From positions 1 to 45,834 of the forward strand of contig JAQGKM010000185.1 in assembly GCA_028290125.1 (NCBI GenBank): a DNA stretch of 45,834 nucleotides. The letters run 5' to 3'. The notes under the pieces were generated by a model. That model saw only the letters and a program-made list of their open reading frames with translations, ran no database searches and was not told the origin of the DNA. The position numbers and the translations under genes are program-made. The number at the start of each line of letters is the position of its first letter. Position 1 is the first letter of the stretch. Below are positions 24,746-34,453 of the stretch, piece by piece. The stretch comes from Hyphomicrobiales bacterium. Its GTDB lineage: Bacteria; Pseudomonadota; Alphaproteobacteria; Rhizobiales; Beijerinckiaceae.

Positions 24746-25723
24746 TCAGGGCGCCGGCGGATCGCGGCGGATGCAGGCCTTGGTGATGTCGTCGAACGTC
24801 TTGCGCTGCTCTGTCGAGAGACGGTTCTGCGCAACCGCGCCGCCGATGCCCTTCGCCTGCGCATCCGTCGCGATGCAGCCGCAGGCTCGCGTGCAGAGTC
24901 CTGCCAGACCGCCTGACGTCATGCATTGCTTCTCGCACTCGAGTCGGAAGGTATCGATGCTCGCAGCGAAAGGCGGTTGCACGATTGTCGAGGCGATGAA
25001 GACGAGCGCCAGGAAGATCGGCTGGTGCACAAGATAGAGCAGCAGCGAATGCTGGCCGCCGAGCACGAGCGCACGGCCAGCCACGCCACGCGGGCGCCAT
25101 GCGTCGACCGCGGCGGGCAGGCCGCGCGCGAGCACGGCGCGTCCCGCGAGCACCCCGATCAGCATCACGCCGAACCACGGCAGCAGCGGACGCCAGTCGT
25201 TGGTGAGCGGGATTTTCGATCCGAGCCCGAGCCACAGCAACGCATCGCTGTTGAAGATCGCAGGCGCATCGACGAGCGGCAGCGCGAGGGCGGCGACAGC
25301 GATCACGGCGACGAGCCACGTCGGCGCCCGGAGCAAGGGCAGCGACAGCAGGCCCGCGACGGCGATGAGATGCAGGATGCCGAAGAAAATGTAGGCGTCC
25401 GGGAAGGCGAACCAGGTCGCGACTGTCACGCCCGCCGCGGCGAGCGCGATCTTCCCGATCCGCCGCAGCGCCCGTGGCCAGTCGATCCCGCGCCGCGCCG
25501 CAAGCGTGAGCCCCAGTCCGGCAAGGCCGATGAAGGACACCGCAATGACATGGCCGTAGCCCATGAATCGCGGGTCGGTCACGAGCGTCTGCGGCGCGAG
25601 GCCGAAGGCGGTCAGATCCCAGCCGAGATGGAACGTGAACATCGCGACGAGCGCGACCCCGCGCGCCGCATCGATCGCGGGCCAGCGCGGAGCCTTGGTC
25701 AGCGAGCCGTCAGCCACACTCAT
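24746..25723 (-). CDS. DUF1624/heparan-alpha-glucosaminide N-acetyltransferase-like membrane protein with Cys-rich C-terminal tail
   Basis: AIDAARGVALVAMFTFHLGWDLTAFGL, multi-TM; C-terminus CEKQCMTSGGLAGLCTRACGCIATDAQ. Confidence 0.82.
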   Translation of the reverse strand: MSVADGSLTKAPRWPAIDAARGVALVAMFTFHLGWDLTAFGLAPQTLVTDPRFMGYGHVIAVSFIGLAGLGLTLAARRGIDWPRALRRIGKIALAAAGVTVATWFAFPDAYIFFGILHLIAVAGLLSLPLLRAPTWLVAVIAVAALALPLVDAPAIFNSDALLWLGLGSKIPLTNDWRPLLPWFGVMLIGVLAGRAVLARGLPAAVDAWRPRGVAGRALVLGGQHSLLLYLVHQPIFLALVFIASTIVQPPFAASIDTFRLECEKQCMTSGGLAGLCTRACGCIATDAQAKGIGGAVAQNRLSTEQRKTFDDITKACIRRDPPAP

Positions 25724-25726
25724 GCG

Positions 25727-26731
25727 TCAGGGCGCAGGCTTGTCGCTGAAACGGCCGAACACCATGTCGGGCGCGCTCTTGTTGTGCAGCGAGGGAATGA
25801 CGCGGCCGGCCCAGATCTCGGTGATCGCGCCGCCCTTGTAGGCCAGCACGGGAGACTCGCCCCATGCCTCGACGCCCTTCTCGCGCCACGCCACGCGCGC
25901 GACGTCCGAGTTGAATTCCGTCGCATACATCGAGCGCATGCTGGCGAAGGGATAATCCTTCGGCGCATCGGCCGAGATCGCGACGTCGAGGATCATGCGC
26001 TCCTGATCGATCGTGTCGAGCTTGATGGTCGCCGATCCGCCGCGCGCGAAATCGAGCTTGAAGGTCATCTTGTCGGGATCGAAGGTGATCGTCTTGATGT
26101 CGACGATCGGACGCTGCTGCGTCTCCACGGGGCCGACGAGGAACGACGAGCCATAGGCGGTCCAGCGCATGTCGGCGAAGGGCAGCGGGCGCGCGCGCCA
26201 GTAGCCGTCCGGCGGATAGAACACCAGCACCTCTTCGGCGCGCTCGCGATGCTTCATCCAGAGCTGCACCATGTGCAGGCCCTTTTCCTCGCGGTCGCCG
26301 ACGCGCAGCACCGTGTTGGCTGGGCGCCAGAACGACGGGTAGGTGTAGCCCGTCAGCCAAAACTCCGGCGTCTCCCAGAAGGTGACGCGGCGCGCATCGG
26401 ATTTGAACACCGGATCCTGCGACATGTCACAGGAGGTGAAGTCGGGCGCGTAACGGTCGATGTTTATCGTGCCGATATAGGCCGGATGCACGGCCTGGAT
26501 TCGGAACTGGCGCACGAGCGGCGACGAGAAGGTCAGCTCGATATTGTCCTTCTCGGCGCACAGCACCGGCGTCGACTTGTTGGCGATGTTGACCGAGAGT
26601 TCGGTCGGGTCGATCCCCTTGGTGGGCGGCGTAAAGGGCGCCGGCGGCGGGGTCGGCGTGCGCGGCTGCGCGCTGGCGCCTGCGATCCCGAGCGCGAGTG
26701 TGCAGGAGAGGGCGAAGAAAAGGGATCTCAT
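25727..26731 (-). CDS. Secreted protein of unknown function, operonic with opgH
   Basis: MRSLFFALSCTLALGIAGASAQPRTPTPPPAPFTPPTKG signal peptide; start overlaps opgH stop by 4 nt. Confidence 0.8.
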   Translation of the reverse strand: MRSLFFALSCTLALGIAGASAQPRTPTPPPAPFTPPTKGIDPTELSVNIANKSTPVLCAEKDNIELTFSSPLVRQFRIQAVHPAYIGTINIDRYAPDFTSCDMSQDPVFKSDARRVTFWETPEFWLTGYTYPSFWRPANTVLRVGDREEKGLHMVQLWMKHRERAEEVLVFYPPDGYWRARPLPFADMRWTAYGSSFLVGPVETQQRPIVDIKTITFDPDKMTFKLDFARGGSATIKLDTIDQERMILDVAISADAPKDYPFASMRSMYATEFNSDVARVAWREKGVEAWGESPVLAYKGGAITEIWAGRVIPSLHNKSAPDMVFGRFSDKPAP

Positions 26732-28536
26732 GCGTGTTCCATTGTGTGCGGAGGTGAGGACGGCGCGGAAACATTGTCCAGCATGGCGAGGATCTGGGGC
26801 CGGGTGATGTCTTCGGGAATGGCGCAGAGGCCGCTTCGTTGCAGGAATTTCGTGAACCGCGGTCCGGATGTTTCGACCGCGAACGGAATCGCGAAGAAAT
26901 AGCCCAGCGTCAGGGGCGCCGACCACAGGATGAGCGACGGCGCGAGCCATGCGGCCATGCCGTACAGGTAGACGCCGAAGACAAGCTGCGGCCACAGCCC
27001 CGCAAAAGCGGTCGCGTAAGACAGCTCATGCGCATCGCGCGACTGGCCGCTCCAGATCACCGAGCGCCCGAACAGCAGGCCGATCATGAACAGGCCGGTG
27101 CGCAGCGTCGTCGCGGCGCCGAGCATGAACGAGAAGGCGAGTTCGAACAGCGCGCCGCCGGCGAAGCGCGCCCCGCCGCCATAGCGCGTGAGCCCGTCAC
27201 GCGTCAGCGCGATGTCGAGGAAGCCCGCGAGCTTAGGTGCGAGATACATGCCGAGCCAGACCGCATAGAGGCCAAGCGCCGAGCCCTTGGGGAAGCGCGC
27301 GATGTCCTCGCCGTCGAGCGGCTTCAGCACGGCGAGCGCGATGAGCAGCGTGAAGGCGGGCACGCCGATGAACATCATGATCGCCCACAGCAGCTGGAAG
27401 CGGCTCATGGGCCGAAGGTCCTTCAGGCCAAGCAGCGCCCAGTACTGCATGTTGCCCTGGCACCAGCGCAGATCGCGGCGCGTGAATTCGAGCAGCGTCG
27501 GCGGATTGTCCTCGTAGCTGCCGCTCTCTTCGGGCAGCACGCGGCATTCGTATCCGGCGCGGCGCATCAGCACCGCCTCGACCTGGTCGTGCGACAGGAT
27601 CTGTCCGCCGAGCGGCGGCTTGCCGGGCAGCACGGGCAGATCGCAATGATCGCGGAACGGCGCGATGCGCACGAGCGCATTGTGTCCCCAGAACGGGCCG
27701 CAATCGCCCGCCCACCAGGCGCTGCCCATCGTGTAGGGCCGCATGCCGTGACGCATGCCGAACTGGAACACGCGGGCGAAGCCCGACGTCGCGGGCGCGC
27801 CGACGACGAGGCTCTGCAGGATGCCGAGCTTCGGCCACGCCTGACCCATGCGCACCATCCGCAGAATGGTCTCGCCCGACATCAGGCTGTCGGCGTCGAG
27901 CGGCAGCATGAAGGTGAAGTCGGCGCCCCAGCGTTCGCAGAATTCGCGGACGTTGCCGGCCTTGTAGCCTTCATTGTTCGTGCGGCGTCGGTAATGCAGA
28001 CGCACGGCGGCATGCGGATGGCGGCCGCGCAGCGACTCGACGCCTTGCTCCTCCACGATCGCGACCGTCGCGTCATCGGTGTCGCTCAGGATGAAATAGG
28101 AAAAGCTCGCCTCGTCGTCGGACCTGGCCAGCGACAGCATCATGGTTTCGAGCCGTGCGAGCGCGCGCGCCGGATCTTCATTGCGCACCGTCATGATGAT
28201 CGCGGTGCGCTCCGTGATTGGCGCGCCGGACTCGCCCGCGATGGCGTAGGGCATGACGCTTTCGCGCGCGTCGCGGCGGCCATGCAGCAGCCAGAGGCCA
28301 AGCAGTGCATTCCAGACGCCGAGCACGCTCCACGGCGCCGCGACCGCGAAGCAGACGAACATGGCGACGTCGAGAAAGCTCCAGCCCTGATCGCCGAGGA
28401 TCGACGCGAGCCAGGCGAGCAGGCCGAGATAGGTTGCGATGTTGAGCGCTGCAGCCGCAAGGCGCCGCCTCGTCAGCACGGCGGCGTCTTGCACGCCGGC
28501 GGGCGTCAGGGTCTTGCGTGTCGAAGCAAGCGACAT
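26728..28536 (-). CDS. opgH: Glucans biosynthesis glucosyltransferase (OpgH/MdoH family)
   Basis: TAIIMTVRNEDPARALARLETM, FILSDTDDA, LPLDADSLMSGETILRMV, WWAGDCGPFWGHNALVR, GQILSHDQVEAVLMRRAGYECRVLPEESGSYEDNPPTLLEFTRRDLRWCQGNMQY. Confidence 0.95.
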   Translation of the reverse strand: MSLASTRKTLTPAGVQDAAVLTRRRLAAAALNIATYLGLLAWLASILGDQGWSFLDVAMFVCFAVAAPWSVLGVWNALLGLWLLHGRRDARESVMPYAIAGESGAPITERTAIIMTVRNEDPARALARLETMMLSLARSDDEASFSYFILSDTDDATVAIVEEQGVESLRGRHPHAAVRLHYRRRTNNEGYKAGNVREFCERWGADFTFMLPLDADSLMSGETILRMVRMGQAWPKLGILQSLVVGAPATSGFARVFQFGMRHGMRPYTMGSAWWAGDCGPFWGHNALVRIAPFRDHCDLPVLPGKPPLGGQILSHDQVEAVLMRRAGYECRVLPEESGSYEDNPPTLLEFTRRDLRWCQGNMQYWALLGLKDLRPMSRFQLLWAIMMFIGVPAFTLLIALAVLKPLDGEDIARFPKGSALGLYAVWLGMYLAPKLAGFLDIALTRDGLTRYGGGARFAGGALFELAFSFMLGAATTLRTGLFMIGLLFGRSVIWSGQSRDAHELSYATAFAGLWPQLVFGVYLYGMAAWLAPSLILWSAPLTLGYFFAIPFAVETSGPRFTKFLQRSGLCAIPEDITRPQILAMLDNVSAPSSPPHTMEHA

Positions 28537-28616
28537 CGAGCCTTCTCATGAAGTGATCAGGACAGCCGAACCTGCCGCCAAAATCTGTTGCTAAGCCGGG
28601 CGGGACATTAGAGGGT

Positions 28617-29627
28617 GTGCGCATGGCGGTCGAGACGAAAAACACACATCCAAATGTGCGCCCGGGCAACCGGGCGCTCTGGTACACGGGCAAGGCGCGG
28701 GCCGAGCTGCGGCCTGTGCACGTGCCTGAACCCGGGCCCGGCGAAGCGCTGGTTCTCACCCTGTGGTCGGGCATTTCGCGCGGCACCGAACGGCTCGTCT
28801 ACGACGGCCGCGTGCCGCTGTCGGAATTCGACCGCATGAAGGCGCCGTTTCAGGAAGGCGAGTTTCCCTACCCGGTGAAATACGGCTATTGCGCCGTCGG
28901 CATTGTCGAGCAAGGCCCGAAGGACTGGCTCGGCGTGCCGGTCTTCGCGCTGCACCCACACCAGACGCGCTTCGTCGCGCCAGTCGACAGGTTGGTCGCC
29001 ATCCCGGATGGTTTGCCGCTGCGCCGCGCCGCGCTCGCCGCCAACATGGAGACCGCGCTCAACGCGCTGTGGGATTCCGGCGCGGGACCGGGTGACAGGA
29101 TTGTGATCGTCGGCGCCGGGCTGATCGGCCTGCTGGTCGCCTTCCTGGCCGTGCGCCTGCCAGGCGCCGATGTCGTGGTGGTCGATGTCGAGACCGCACG
29201 TGCGCCGCTCGTCACGGCGCTTGGCGCGGAGTTTCGCACGCCCGGCGCGGTCGCGGGCGATGCCGACGTCGTCTTCCACGCGAGCGCGCAGGAAGACGGT
29301 CTCGTCACGGCGCTCGGCGCAGCGGGCTCGGAGGCGACGATCGTCGAATTGAGCTGGTATGGCGACAAGTTCGTGTCCGTGCCGCTCGGCGGCGCCTTCC
29401 ACAGCAAGCGCCTGCGGCTGATCTCGTCGCAGGTCGGGCAGGTGGCGCCGACGCGCCGCCCGCGCTGGAACTATGCGCGACGCCTGCGCAAGGCGCTCGA
29501 TCTTCTGCAGGACGATGTGATCGACAAGCTCATCACCGGCGAGGTCACGTTCGACATGCTGCCCTTCGCGCTGTTCGACATCTTCAATCCCGACGCGCCC
29601 GCGCTGGCGACTGTCGTGCGTTACTGA
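28617..29627 (+). CDS. Zinc-binding-type MDR dehydrogenase
   Basis: WSGISRGTERLVYDGRVP...PYPVKYGYCAVGIVEQGP, GDRIVIVGAGLIGLLVAFLAVRLPGADVVVVD Rossmann. Confidence 0.85.
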   Translation: MRMAVETKNTHPNVRPGNRALWYTGKARAELRPVHVPEPGPGEALVLTLWSGISRGTERLVYDGRVPLSEFDRMKAPFQEGEFPYPVKYGYCAVGIVEQGPKDWLGVPVFALHPHQTRFVAPVDRLVAIPDGLPLRRAALAANMETALNALWDSGAGPGDRIVIVGAGLIGLLVAFLAVRLPGADVVVVDVETARAPLVTALGAEFRTPGAVAGDADVVFHASAQEDGLVTALGAAGSEATIVELSWYGDKFVSVPLGGAFHSKRLRLISSQVGQVAPTRRPRWNYARRLRKALDLLQDDVIDKLITGEVTFDMLPFALFDIFNPDAPALATVVRY

Positions 29628-29642
29628 GAAAGGTTCTGACTG

Positions 29643-30044
29643 ATGTATGCACTCGAGGTGCGCGAGCACATCATGATCGCCCACTCGTTCAAGGGCGAGT
29701 TCTTCGGACCCGCGCAGAACATGCATGGCGCGACCTTCGTGGTCGATGTCGCGTTCTTCCGCGAGACGCTGACCGAGAATGAAGTCGTCGTCGACATCGG
29801 CCGCGCGCATGATGCGCTGAAAGCGACGCTCGGGCCGATCAACTACCAGAACCTCGACGCGCTGCCACTGTTCACGGGACGCCAGACGACGACGGAATTC
29901 CTGTCGAAATACATCTTCGACGCCATGGCGGGCGCGGCGCGCAAGGGCGAGCTCGGACCGGGCGGCGAGGGCATTGCGAAGATCCGCGTTACTCTGCATG
30001 AATCGCATGTCGCGCGCGCCTGGTACGAAGGCGCGGTCGCCTGA
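29643..30044 (+). CDS. PTPS/QueD-fold protein with altered active site
   Basis: 133 aa, HIMIAHSF, AQNMHGATFVVDVAF, VVVDIGRAHDALK, TTTEFLSKYIFD, TLHES aligning with QueD motifs. Confidence 0.82.
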   Translation: MYALEVREHIMIAHSFKGEFFGPAQNMHGATFVVDVAFFRETLTENEVVVDIGRAHDALKATLGPINYQNLDALPLFTGRQTTTEFLSKYIFDAMAGAARKGELGPGGEGIAKIRVTLHESHVARAWYEGAVA

Positions 30045-30049
30045 CAGGC

Positions 30050-31099
30050 ATGAAAACCGTCTTCGCCATTCCGGGCGATCTCGCGGCTTTGACCGGCGGC
30101 TATGCCTACGATCGCGAGATCATGGCGCGGGCGTCGGACGTCGGCATGACGCATCTTGCTCTCCCGCAGGGTTTTCCGGCGCCCACGCCCGATGATTTGC
30201 GCGAGACGCAGCGTCTGTTTCGCACGCTCGCGCCCGGCGACCTGCTGCTGATTGACGGCCTCGCCTTCGGCGCCTTCACGCCCGAGCTGCTGCGCGCTCT
30301 GCCGCGCCGCACCATCGCCCTCGTGCATCATCCGCTGGCGTTGGAGACGGGGCTTGCGGCGGAGGACGCGCATCGACTGGCCGCAAGCGAGCGCCACGCG
30401 CTGTCGCACGCCGCCCACGTCATCGTCACGAGTGCGACGACGCGCGACCTGCTTGTCGCAGACTATGGCGTCGAGCTGGCGCGCATCACGGTCGCGGTTC
30501 CGGGCGTGGAGCGCATGCCGCGTGCGCGCGGTTCCCGCGCTGCGCCGCAGCTTCTCGCAGTGGGCTCGGTGACGCCGCGCAAAGGCCACGACGTGCTCGT
30601 CGCGGCACTTGCCGAGCAAGCCGACCTCGACTGGCGGCTCACCATCGCGGGCTCGCTTGCGCGCGCGCCGGACCATGCGCAGGCGGTCGCCAGCCAGATC
30701 GACGCCGCAGGGCTTTCCGCGCGCATTGCGCTGGCGGGCGAAGTCAGCGAGGCCGAACGCGATGCGCTCTATGACGCCGCCGACATCTTCGTCATGCCCT
30801 CGCTCTACGAAGGCTACGGCATGGTGCTGGGCGAAGCCATGGCACGCGGGCTGCCCATCGTCACCACAACCGGTGGCGCGGCGGCGCAGACGGTTCCGGA
30901 CGCCGCCGCCCTGAAAGTCGCGCCCGGCAATCCTGCCGCGCTTGCGCAGGCGTTGGCGCGGCTCATCGGGGACGCACCGCTGCGCGCGCGATTGGCGGAG
31001 GCGAGCCATTCGGCTGGACAGGCGCTGCCGTCATGGGATGATACGGCGCGCATCGTCGCTGGCGTTCTCGCCCGCGTGGCAGAAGGAACAGGCGCATGA
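30050..31099 (+). CDS. Family 4 glycosyltransferase
   Basis: LLAVGSVTPRKGHDVLVAALAEQ, AGEVSEAERDALYDAADIFVMPSLYEGYGMVLGEAMARGLPIVTTTGGA. Confidence 0.93.
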   Translation: MKTVFAIPGDLAALTGGYAYDREIMARASDVGMTHLALPQGFPAPTPDDLRETQRLFRTLAPGDLLLIDGLAFGAFTPELLRALPRRTIALVHHPLALETGLAAEDAHRLAASERHALSHAAHVIVTSATTRDLLVADYGVELARITVAVPGVERMPRARGSRAAPQLLAVGSVTPRKGHDVLVAALAEQADLDWRLTIAGSLARAPDHAQAVASQIDAAGLSARIALAGEVSEAERDALYDAADIFVMPSLYEGYGMVLGEAMARGLPIVTTTGGAAAQTVPDAAALKVAPGNPAALAQALARLIGDAPLRARLAEASHSAGQALPSWDDTARIVAGVLARVAEGTGA

Positions 31100-31935
31100 C
31101 CGGCTTTTCACCCGACTGGCTCGCGCTGCGCGAACCCGCCGATCACGCGGCGCGATCGGGCGATGTCGCCCGCGATGTCTTCACGCATTTTGCCGGCAAG
31201 GACTCCATGACGGTCGCGGATCTCGGCTGCGGCACGGGCTCCAACCTGCGCGCCATGGCGGAGCATCTGCCGGCGCGACAGACGTGGCGGCTGGTCGACT
31301 GGGACCGCCATCTGCTCGACGCCGCGCGCGGGCGTCTCGTCGGCTGGGCGGACCGCGCCGAGACGCTGGGCGTCGACATGCGCCTGCTGAAGGGCGATCA
31401 CGACATCACGCTGCGGCTCGAGCAGGCCGACCTTGCGCAAGATTTCGAACGCGTGCTGGAGCGCGACGCCGACCTCATCACCGCGACGGCGTTCTTCGAT
31501 CTGGTCTCGGCCAACTGGATCGACGATTTCGTCGCCGTTCTCGCGCGTCGGAGGCTGCCGCTTTACGCCATCCTGACCTACGACGGCCACGAGCAATGGG
31601 CGCCGCCGCATGGCCGCGACGCGCCGATGCTGGCGGCCTTTCACGCCCACCAGCAGCGCGACAAGGGTTTTGGGCCCGCCGCCGGTCCCTTCGCGGCCGC
31701 GCATCTGGCGCGCGCTCTTGAAGAGCAGGGCTATCGCGTCGCGAGCGCGTCCAGTCCGTGGCGGCTGGACGAGGCGCAGCGCGGGCTGATGGGCGAGCTT
31801 GCGCGCGGAGCGGCGAACGCCGTTGCGGAGACCGGGCTCGTCGGTGAAAGCGACATCGCCTCATGGCGCGCGGCGCGCGAAAGCGCCGAGGCCTGCGTCA
31901 TCGGCCACGTCGATCTGTTTGCGACGCCCGCCTGA
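31096..31935 (+). CDS. Class I SAM-dependent methyltransferase
   Basis: TVADLGCGTGSNLRAMAEHLPARQTWRLVDWDRHLLDAAR; 4-nt overlap with GT4. Confidence 0.9.
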   Translation: MTGFSPDWLALREPADHAARSGDVARDVFTHFAGKDSMTVADLGCGTGSNLRAMAEHLPARQTWRLVDWDRHLLDAARGRLVGWADRAETLGVDMRLLKGDHDITLRLEQADLAQDFERVLERDADLITATAFFDLVSANWIDDFVAVLARRRLPLYAILTYDGHEQWAPPHGRDAPMLAAFHAHQQRDKGFGPAAGPFAAAHLARALEEQGYRVASASSPWRLDEAQRGLMGELARGAANAVAETGLVGESDIASWRAARESAEACVIGHVDLFATPA

Positions 31936-32514
31936 TCAGCTCCGGCCGCGCGGCCACATCCGGGCGAGCACGCCGTCATGCTTGACGAAGCGATGCATCA
32001 ACGCGCCGCCGATGTGGGCGACCAGCAGCGCGACGATCAGCAGCGCCGAGATTTCATGCGCCTTGAACAGCAGCTTCGACAGGGCTTCGTTTTCCGGCGC
32101 GAGCGGCGGCAGCGTGAAAAGCCAGAAGATCGAAACGGCGACCGGGTAGGCCGAGGTCGCGGCCCAGCCCAGCAGCGGCGTGGCGATGAGCAGCACGTAA
32201 AGCGCATGATGCGCGAAGGTGGAGGCGCGCAATTCGAATGGCGTCAATCCCGCGTAGGCCGCCGGAACGCCGTAAATCCTGCGCACGAGGAGCCGCGCAA
32301 GCGCGAGGCAGAGCACCACGAAGCCAAAGGAGCGGTGCAGGTCGTAACCCAGATCCTGCACGCGGCCTTCGGGCAGATCGTCGAGCAGGAACCCCACCGG
32401 TATCTGGCCGAAGATGATGATCGCCGTGATCCAGTGCAGCCATTTCGAGGCGGCTGAATAATCGAGCCGCCCGTTCGCCGTCGTCGCCACGCTCATGTCA
32501 GCCCCCGTCGCCAT
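31936..32514 (-). CDS. Cytochrome b561
   Basis: YSAASKWLHWITAIIIFGQIPVGFLL...DLHRSFGFVVLCLALARLLVRR...HHALYVLLIATPLLGWA. Confidence 0.93.
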   Translation of the reverse strand: MATGADMSVATTANGRLDYSAASKWLHWITAIIIFGQIPVGFLLDDLPEGRVQDLGYDLHRSFGFVVLCLALARLLVRRIYGVPAAYAGLTPFELRASTFAHHALYVLLIATPLLGWAATSAYPVAVSIFWLFTLPPLAPENEALSKLLFKAHEISALLIVALLVAHIGGALMHRFVKHDGVLARMWPRGRS

Positions 32515-33217
32515 TTCGCAGGTCGCAATCGATCAGAAATTCGCGCTCGCCCAGCGCATGCAGCGTCGTGTGCGGCCGCAGCGCGCCCGACAGGTCGTCG
32601 ATCGGCGCGAGGTCGAGTCCGTTGCGGCCCGATCCGATGATGATCGGCGCGAACAGAAGGTGAAGCCGGTCGACGCAGCCCGCATCGATAAAGGACGAGA
32701 TGGTGCGCGCGCCGCCTTCGATGAGAATCTTTTTCATGCCGCGCCGAAAGAGGGCGTCGACGATGGCGCGCGGCGCGATGGCGCCCTGGTCGGCCTCCAG
32801 CCGGATGTGCTGAAGGCCCGGCGGCAGCGACGCGACCGAACAGGCGGTGACGACGAAGCAACTCGCGCCATTGTGTTCGAGCCATTTCGCAGGACTCTTC
32901 AGCCGTCCCGTCGGGTCGATGACGACGCGCGCGGGACTGCGGCCGGGCACGCGACGCACTGTCAATTGCGGGTCGTCGGCCACCACCGTGCCGGCGCCCA
33001 CCACCACCGCGTCGACTTCGGCGCGAATGCGATGCAGATGGTCGAGCGCCGGCGCGCCATTGATATATTTGCTCATGCCGGTGATCGTCGCGATGCGCCC
33101 GTCGAGCGACTGTCCGAGTTGCGCGACCACGAACGGTCGCGCAGGATCGGCGCGCCGGAAGGGCGCGAACGGATCCTGCATCGACTCGTCTGGCATCAGG
33201 TCGGCGGCGGGTCTCAT
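32498..33217 (-). CDS. RibD C-terminal (pyrimidine/dihydrofolate reductase-like) protein without deaminase domain
   Basis: VVAQLGQSLDGRIATITGMSKYINGAPALDHLHRIRAEVDAVVVGAGTVVADDPQLTVR...ILIEGGARTISSFIDAG. Confidence 0.9.
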   Translation of the reverse strand: MRPAADLMPDESMQDPFAPFRRADPARPFVVAQLGQSLDGRIATITGMSKYINGAPALDHLHRIRAEVDAVVVGAGTVVADDPQLTVRRVPGRSPARVVIDPTGRLKSPAKWLEHNGASCFVVTACSVASLPPGLQHIRLEADQGAIAPRAIVDALFRRGMKKILIEGGARTISSFIDAGCVDRLHLLFAPIIIGSGRNGLDLAPIDDLSGALRPHTTLHALGEREFLIDCDLRNGDGG

Positions 33218-33250: not shown

Positions 33251-34453
33251 ATGAGCGGGGCAGGGGAGGGATTGGGAAGGCGATGTCCTGCTCGGATCGC
33301 TTTCCCGACGTGTGAGGGTCGCGTGAAGGATCGTAAGTCTAGTCTAGTCGGAGGCGCAGCCTTCGGCCATATCCAGGTCGAACGCGCGATCGCCGAAGTT
33401 CGCTCGGGCCGTCCCGTACTCGTGACCTCGCCGCAAGGCGCCCTCATCGCCGCTACCTTCGAGGCGCTGGACGAAGCGTTCATGGCAGAGCTCACGCCTG
33501 TGGCGCAAGGGCGCGCGCGCCTGGTGCTCGCAGCGCCGCGTCTGCGCCGCCTCGGCGTCGAGCGCCAGACGGCCGGCCTCATCGCCCTGCCGACTCTCGA
33601 TTTCGCCCGCATCGCAGCGCTATCCGTCGAACTCGACGGACGCATCGACGCGCCGGTCGCGTCTCTCACGCAAGGCGATGAAGCCGCGCTCGAACTCGCC
33701 CGGCTGGCGCTCGTCCTGCCAGCCGTCGTCACCGTGCCGGTGGACGCGGACGCGAGCGAGACCGCCGGGCTGTTGCGCGTCTCCGTCGAAGAGATCTCGC
33801 AGTACCGTTCGCAGGAGCAGCATGCGCTGAAGCTCATCTCGCGCGCGCCCGTGCCGCTCGAAGGCGCGCCCGATAGCGAATTTGTGATTGTCCGCGGCGG
33901 CGAGGGCTTGCGCGATCAGGTGGCGGTGATCGTCGGCAAGCCGGACTTTTCCGCGCCCGTCACCGTGCGTCTGCATTCGGCCTGTCTCACCGGCGATTTG
34001 TTCGGTTCGCTGAAGTGCGATTGCGGCGACCAGTTGCGCCACACCGCGAAATTCATGGCCGAGAATGGCGGCGGCGTGCTGCTCTACCTCGACCAGGAAG
34101 GCCGTGGCAACGGCATCTCCAACAAGATCCGCGCCTATCGCCTTCAGGCGCAAGGCTTCGACACCTACGACGCCGACGAGGTGCTGGGCTTCGATCACGA
34201 TCAGCGTGGTTTTGCCTTCGCGGGTCTGATGCTGAAGCAGCTGGGCGTCACCGCAGTGCGTGTGATGACCAACAATCCGGTGAAGATCGCCGCGCTCGAA
34301 GACGCCGGGCTCGATGTCGCCGGCAACCAGCGCATCATCGGGCGGCTGACCGACCAGAACGTTCGCTATCTCGCCTCGAAGCGGGATCGCGCCGGACATT
34401 TTATCGATGTATTGGACAAGGCGCCGCCTGCGCATGGCGGGGCCAAGGACTGA
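33251..34453 (+). CDS. ribA: GTP cyclohydrolase II with degenerate DHBP-synthase-like N-terminal region
   Basis: VTVRLHSACLTGDLFGSLKCDCGDQL, LYLDQEGRGNGISNKIRAYRLQ, RVMTNNPVKI; in-frame GTG at 33323 is an alternative start. Confidence 0.93.
   Translation: MSGAGEGLGRRCPARIAFPTCEGRVKDRKSSLVGGAAFGHIQVERAIAEVRSGRPVLVTSPQGALIAATFEALDEAFMAELTPVAQGRARLVLAAPRLRRLGVERQTAGLIALPTLDFARIAALSVELDGRIDAPVASLTQGDEAALELARLALVLPAVVTVPVDADASETAGLLRVSVEEISQYRSQEQHALKLISRAPVPLEGAPDSEFVIVRGGEGLRDQVAVIVGKPDFSAPVTVRLHSACLTGDLFGSLKCDCGDQLRHTAKFMAENGGGVLLYLDQEGRGNGISNKIRAYRLQAQGFDTYDADEVLGFDHDQRGFAFAGLMLKQLGVTAVRVMTNNPVKIAALEDAGLDVAGNQRIIGRLTDQNVRYLASKRDRAGHFIDVLDKAPPAHGGAKD

Follow-up and report, generated by a model that had tools for sequence, protein, structure and literature searches.

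In Escherichia coli, the inner-membrane protein OpgH and its periplasmic partner OpgG, a member of GH186, are encoded in one operon, opgGH (also named mdoGH). Whether an OpgH can work without OpgG is a question raised by Caulobacter, from which OpgH in the absence of OpgG is already known: opgH is the only opg gene there, and the bacterium has a cyclic glucose hexamer (PMC11389396). An opgGIH-opgC operon of Rhodobacter sphaeroides is cited in PMC10514313. Proteins of the TmAT superfamily, HGSNAT among them, are described as carrying acyl groups through the membrane to glycan acceptors (PMC12423673). The locus described here lies in a 45,834-nt stretch of DNA (the window) from the metagenome-assembled genome (MAG) of a Hyphomicrobiales bacterium, and the data support a distinct OpgH operon that contains no OpgG and encodes, besides OpgH, a secreted partner that is conserved and a membrane-spanning protein of an acyltransferase family.

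When the open reading frames of the window were called with a codon-position GC caller, a tight minus-strand operon was obtained, in which opgH (26728..28536) is followed by a gene for a secreted protein of 334 amino acids, hereafter SEC (25727..26731), and by a gene for an HGSNAT_cat (DUF1624) membrane protein of 325 amino acids (24746..25723). The junctions are those given in the preliminary description: opgH ends and SEC begins within a shared ATGA at 26728-26731, and the HGSNAT start at 25723 lies just past the SEC stop (25727-25729), with 3 nt in between. The naming of the three products as OpgH, a secreted protein and a DUF1624-type protein was likewise borne out by the family and signal analyses.

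The 602-residue OpgH of the window is an inner-membrane GT2 glucosyltransferase by its matches to NF003963 and PF13632/PF00535 and by its place in the tree. It reaches 887.2 bits against NF003963 (glucans biosynthesis glucosyltransferase MdoH; cut-off 884), lies above the cut-offs of NF003958 and NF003962 too, and carries the GT2 catalytic motifs D214-A-D216, S315-H-D317 and R357-W-C-x-G-N362, which are invariant in the alignment, E. coli OpgH included. By their NF003963 score, the OpgH proteins of the order fall into two main groups, one above about 650 bits (type A, to which the protein of the window belongs) and one below about 460 bits (type B), and when a tree of 56 type A and 14 type B sequences was rooted with E. 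coli OpgH, each type resolved as a clade of its own, with support values of 0.87 and 1.0. OpgG adjoins type B opgH wherever upstream sequence is available, no OpgG match was found in any type A locus, and all OpgH-linked OpgG matches stand beside type B. Type A occurs in 61 of the 249 sampled genomes, 11 of which have no detected OpgG; these absences, like those of SEC, are provisional, since scoring was confined to a few top candidates in each genome and some genomes are incomplete. Three of the 11 (G124, G242 and G114) encode SEC and eight do not, so that neither protein need accompany type A OpgH. The trio that combines type A OpgH with SEC, of which G124 is rated 100% complete, makes an OpgG-independent pathway plausible.

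The preliminary description had called the locus an opgH operon lacking opgG. This holds for the operon, as no opgG adjoins this opgH, but not for the genome. The MAG (74% complete, 484 contigs) contains six matches to PF04349, two of which may be parts of a single gene divided by a contig break. Its second OpgH is located on contig C472. The end of contig C355 and the start of C472 have exactly 127 nt in common, and the terminal opgG of C355 runs into the start of opgH on C472; together, the two contigs carry a canonical opgG-opgH operon. A genome without OpgG is thereby rejected, and the search for opgG that had been proposed shows that the normal pathway is not missing. The preliminary description would have given up a separate glucan pathway if a canonical opgGH operon made all glucan and the present operon had no glucan phenotype; of these two, it is the canonical operon that has been found.

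The second gene encodes an exported all-beta protein that belongs to no named family. SEC carries a Sec-type signal peptide, as judged by eye, and gave no match in Pfam, NCBIfam, the PDB sequences or plasmid records; its 60-member family likewise gave none in Pfam, searched member by member, or in the PDB sequences. The AlphaFold2 model (pLDDT 87) is almost all beta, and none of the best 50 matches listed in a comparison with PDB folds reached E <= 0.001. Across the 60 sequences, 49 positions are invariant, among them two cysteines as well as numerous acidic and aromatic residues, and export is conserved, though by two routes (Sec here, apparent Tat in Methylocystaceae). Relatives were found in 23 of 24 same-genus genomes, at 62 loci of a wider genome collection (mostly Beijerinckiaceae, Methylocystaceae and Aquabacter), in 39 of the 249 genomes sampled within the order and, among those sampled outside it, in four genomes that keep the link to opgH. 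SEC as an OpgG homologue was rejected: in the HHpred-type check that had been suggested, the profile-profile probability in hhalign was 0.4%, and there is no PF04349 match; a counterpart of OpgG by descent is thus not supported for SEC.

SEC and type A OpgH are associated across the order. Type A OpgH is present in 34 of the 39 SEC genomes vs 27 of the 210 genomes without SEC (Fisher 5e-20, relatedness ignored), which leaves five SEC genomes of the order without it. The SEC gene is directly downstream of type A opgH in 22 of the 39, always on the same strand (22/22) and at a distance of 90-1,597 bases as measured from the match to opgH, and it stands away from type A opgH in the other 17. Overall, the link was found in at least 12 genera. 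In most of the 22 genomes, the gap between the two genes holds an FkbM methyltransferase gene, which lies between both in many genera and whose link to opgH was not found described in the literature searched; the HGSNAT gene joins opgH and SEC only in the lineage of the window. Since the operon is kept in most same-genus genomes and all 22 linked SEC genes follow type A opgH on the same strand, its conservation is far beyond chance. OpgG is also present in 36 of the 39 SEC genomes, that of the window included.

Other surroundings of SEC were seen as well. The pair of SEC and HGSNAT genes in Methylosinus and Methylocystis is often preceded by genes for an FAD oxidoreductase, GtrA and a membrane protein of 600 amino acids, or by other genes. 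At six loci (L053, L054, L056, L059, L066 and L155), which come from Methylosinus, Methylocystis and a genome of the same family as that of the window, the FAD oxidoreductase, mostly GtrA and the 600-residue membrane protein, for which no Pfam match was obtained, are located about 1-5 kb before SEC. Furthermore, a quinone-oxidoreductase-like gene adjoins SEC away from opgH in genus g24, where this concerns a second paralogue, and in genus g39 (loci L158 and L160, and L171, L173 and L174).

The product of the third gene matches PF07786 (HGSNAT_cat, E 1.1e-64), which we take to be the family formerly called DUF1624. It is a transmembrane acyltransferase-like protein with an invariant DxxR motif (D18/R21) and four invariant histidines in the alignment of its relatives. 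Seven apparent membrane helices are seen in its model (pLDDT 92), along with a helical tail that bears twin CX3C motifs, and the top three PDB fold matches are all human HGSNAT (prob 0.99, TM 0.36-0.39), though at E values of 0.09-0.14. The Cys-rich tail remarked on earlier (24767..24958, minus strand; CX3C-X9-CX3CXC...C) is real, as six cysteines are invariant in 32 relatives. With seven predicted helices, the tail would be periplasmic if the N-terminus is cytoplasmic, and its cysteines could form disulfides. The tail as a special adaptation of the operon was rejected, because 18 of the 29 HGSNAT proteins examined elsewhere in the order have the same pattern with no SEC or opgH nearby. More generally, the CX3C..CX3CXC..C tail is widespread on the HGSNAT_cat proteins of the order (loci L258-L287), some members being entirely without it, and most of these proteins are encoded apart from opgH and SEC.

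Upstream of opgH, an intergenic region of 86 bp (28537..28622), which presumably holds promoters for both directions, separates the operon from a divergent plus-strand cluster. The latter comprises genes for a BchC/zinc-dehydrogenase-like protein (28623..29627; TIGR01202, 49 bits, below the cut-off), a PTPS/QueD-like protein (29643..30044; PF01242, E 1.5e-19), a GT4-family glycosyltransferase (30050..31099; PF00534, E 4.7e-30) and a SAM methyltransferase-like protein (31096..31935; PF13649, E 6.9e-6), past which RibD_C (32498-33217, minus) and RibA (33482-34453, plus) genes are found. Of 62 type A opgH genes, 57, in 16 families, have a PTPS-like gene at a distance of 1.05-1.56 kb, divergently oriented in all 57 cases, and such a gene is present in 57 of 61 type A genomes vs 11 of 188 others (Fisher 7e-40, relatedness uncorrected). 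Type A opgH thus pairs more tightly with the PTPS/GT4 cluster than with SEC. In 45 of 45 aligned sequences, the PTPS-like protein has alanine at positions 24 and 30, which we take to correspond to the catalytic Cys and the third zinc His normally present in PTPS/QueD. The closest solved structure is SCO6650 from Streptomyces (3d7j), deposited as uncharacterized. A link of opgH to 6-pyruvoyl genes or to a PTPS cluster was not described in the literature searched. One MAG titled Lautropia mirabilis also carries an Alphaproteobacteria-type opgH together with the PTPS cluster; labelled as a betaproteobacterium, it is probably misnamed or a mixed bin.

From our point of view, these findings are best explained by a second, OpgG-independent OpgH locus, in which SEC would handle the glucan and HGSNAT would acylate it, although as a whole this account is tentative and stands slightly below an even chance. 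At the inner membrane, type A OpgH would use UDP-glucose for the polymerization of glucose and deliver a short glucan into the periplasm, where the exported SEC may bind or process it and where the HGSNAT-family protein would place acyl groups carried through the membrane from cytoplasmic acyl-CoA. The substituent probably differs between lineages, since an FkbM methyltransferase gene takes the place of HGSNAT in the operon of other lineages. The data show the gene identities, the conservation of the operon and the co-occurrences, whereas it is our inference that OpgH makes a glucan here, on which SEC acts and to which HGSNAT adds acyl groups; a processing of the glucan by SEC is a guess, as the protein has no recognized fold or catalytic signature. 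In favor of this account are the family membership and motifs of OpgH, the two clades with OpgG beside type B only, the co-occurrence and linkage of SEC with type A opgH, the FkbM gene between both in many genera, the kept export signal, the three SEC genomes with type A but no detected OpgG, the case of Caulobacter and the acyl transfer to glycans described for TmAT proteins. Against it are the incomplete SEC-opgH link, the type A genomes free of both SEC and OpgG, the SEC-HGSNAT pairs placed beside the FAD oxidoreductase/GtrA cluster instead, the mostly unlinked HGSNAT proteins and a divergent cluster that it does not account for.

Alternatively, SEC and HGSNAT may serve another envelope glycan, such as lipopolysaccharide, capsule or the product of another membrane glycosyltransferase, their operon with opgH being a lineage-specific assembly. 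The pairs without opgH beside GtrA and the membrane protein in Methylocystis and Methylosinus, the SEC genomes without type A OpgH, and the non-glycan contexts of the g24 paralogues and the g39 SEC are all consistent with this, the main rival. Against it, SEC follows type A opgH in about 12 genera, other orders included, and always on the same strand; we regard it as rather unlikely. The preliminary description had instead proposed that SEC takes the place of OpgG. As a non-homologous functional replacement that is required for synthesis of the glucan backbone, SEC would suit the three genomes in which it stands with type A opgH and OpgG was not detected; however, SEC is not detectably related to OpgG, OpgG accompanies it in most SEC genomes, that of the window too, and with eight sampled type A genomes that have neither protein, such a replacement is not obligatory. 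We therefore consider this idea improbable.

The tight divergent pairing with the PTPS-like gene, conserved in distance and orientation over 16 families and matched by the co-occurrence of the two genes (relatedness uncorrected), could also mean that type A OpgH makes no ordinary periplasmic glucan and works with the divergent cluster on another glucosylated product. We give this little credence: eleven genomes have a PTPS-like gene and no type A opgH, the closest solved relative of the PTPS-like protein stems from Streptomyces, where no periplasmic glucans are to be expected, and divergent neighbors may share a promoter region only. As for a chance or inherited co-location of functionally unrelated envelope genes, one could point to the incomplete linkage and to the presence of HGSNAT in the operon of a single lineage, but the ATGA overlap, the gene order and strand kept across families and the association statistics render it very hard to believe.

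SEC, an unnamed exported family, is a candidate partner of OpgH, and the OpgG-free OpgH operon is found beside the classical pair in some genomes and alone in others. That type A opgH and the PTPS-like/GT4 cluster almost always stand divergently side by side offers a concrete clue to what each of them does. One could speculate further, with somewhat more doubt than for the locus itself, that Alphaproteobacteria may possess two parallel glucan systems, namely (i) OpgG-OpgH and (ii) an OpgG-independent type A OpgH with SEC as a new periplasmic glucan-handling family, lineage-specific methyl or acyl decorators and a co-regulated divergent cluster with a catalytically altered PTPS homologue.

Compared with the known systems, the locus shares with E. 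coli opgGH the combination of an inner-membrane OpgH and a periplasmic partner in one operon. In contrast to that system, its OpgH belongs to a separate clade, comprises 602 instead of 847 amino acids and has 31% identity to E. coli OpgH, and the partner is SEC, which is not detectably related to OpgG and is encoded downstream instead of upstream. With Caulobacter, compared here by its description, it has in common an OpgH without opgG beside it and a short OpgH without the extensions of the E. coli protein, whereas the operon with SEC is a feature of the present locus and none is reported in Caulobacter (PMC11389396). The third protein resembles the HGSNAT/YeiB branch of the TmAT superfamily (PMC12423673) in its PF07786 domain and the DxxR motif in TM1, and human HGSNAT heads its fold matches, at E 0.09-0.14; it differs in its seven predicted helices and the Cys-rich tail, and it is not of the OpgC family. 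Lastly, as far as the opgGIH-opgC operon of R. sphaeroides is described where it is cited (PMC10514313), both cases place an alphaproteobacterial OpgH in an operon with a gene for a substituent transferase, a role that is putative here, whereas the R. sphaeroides operon includes OpgG and its transferase is OpgC, which represents another TmAT family.
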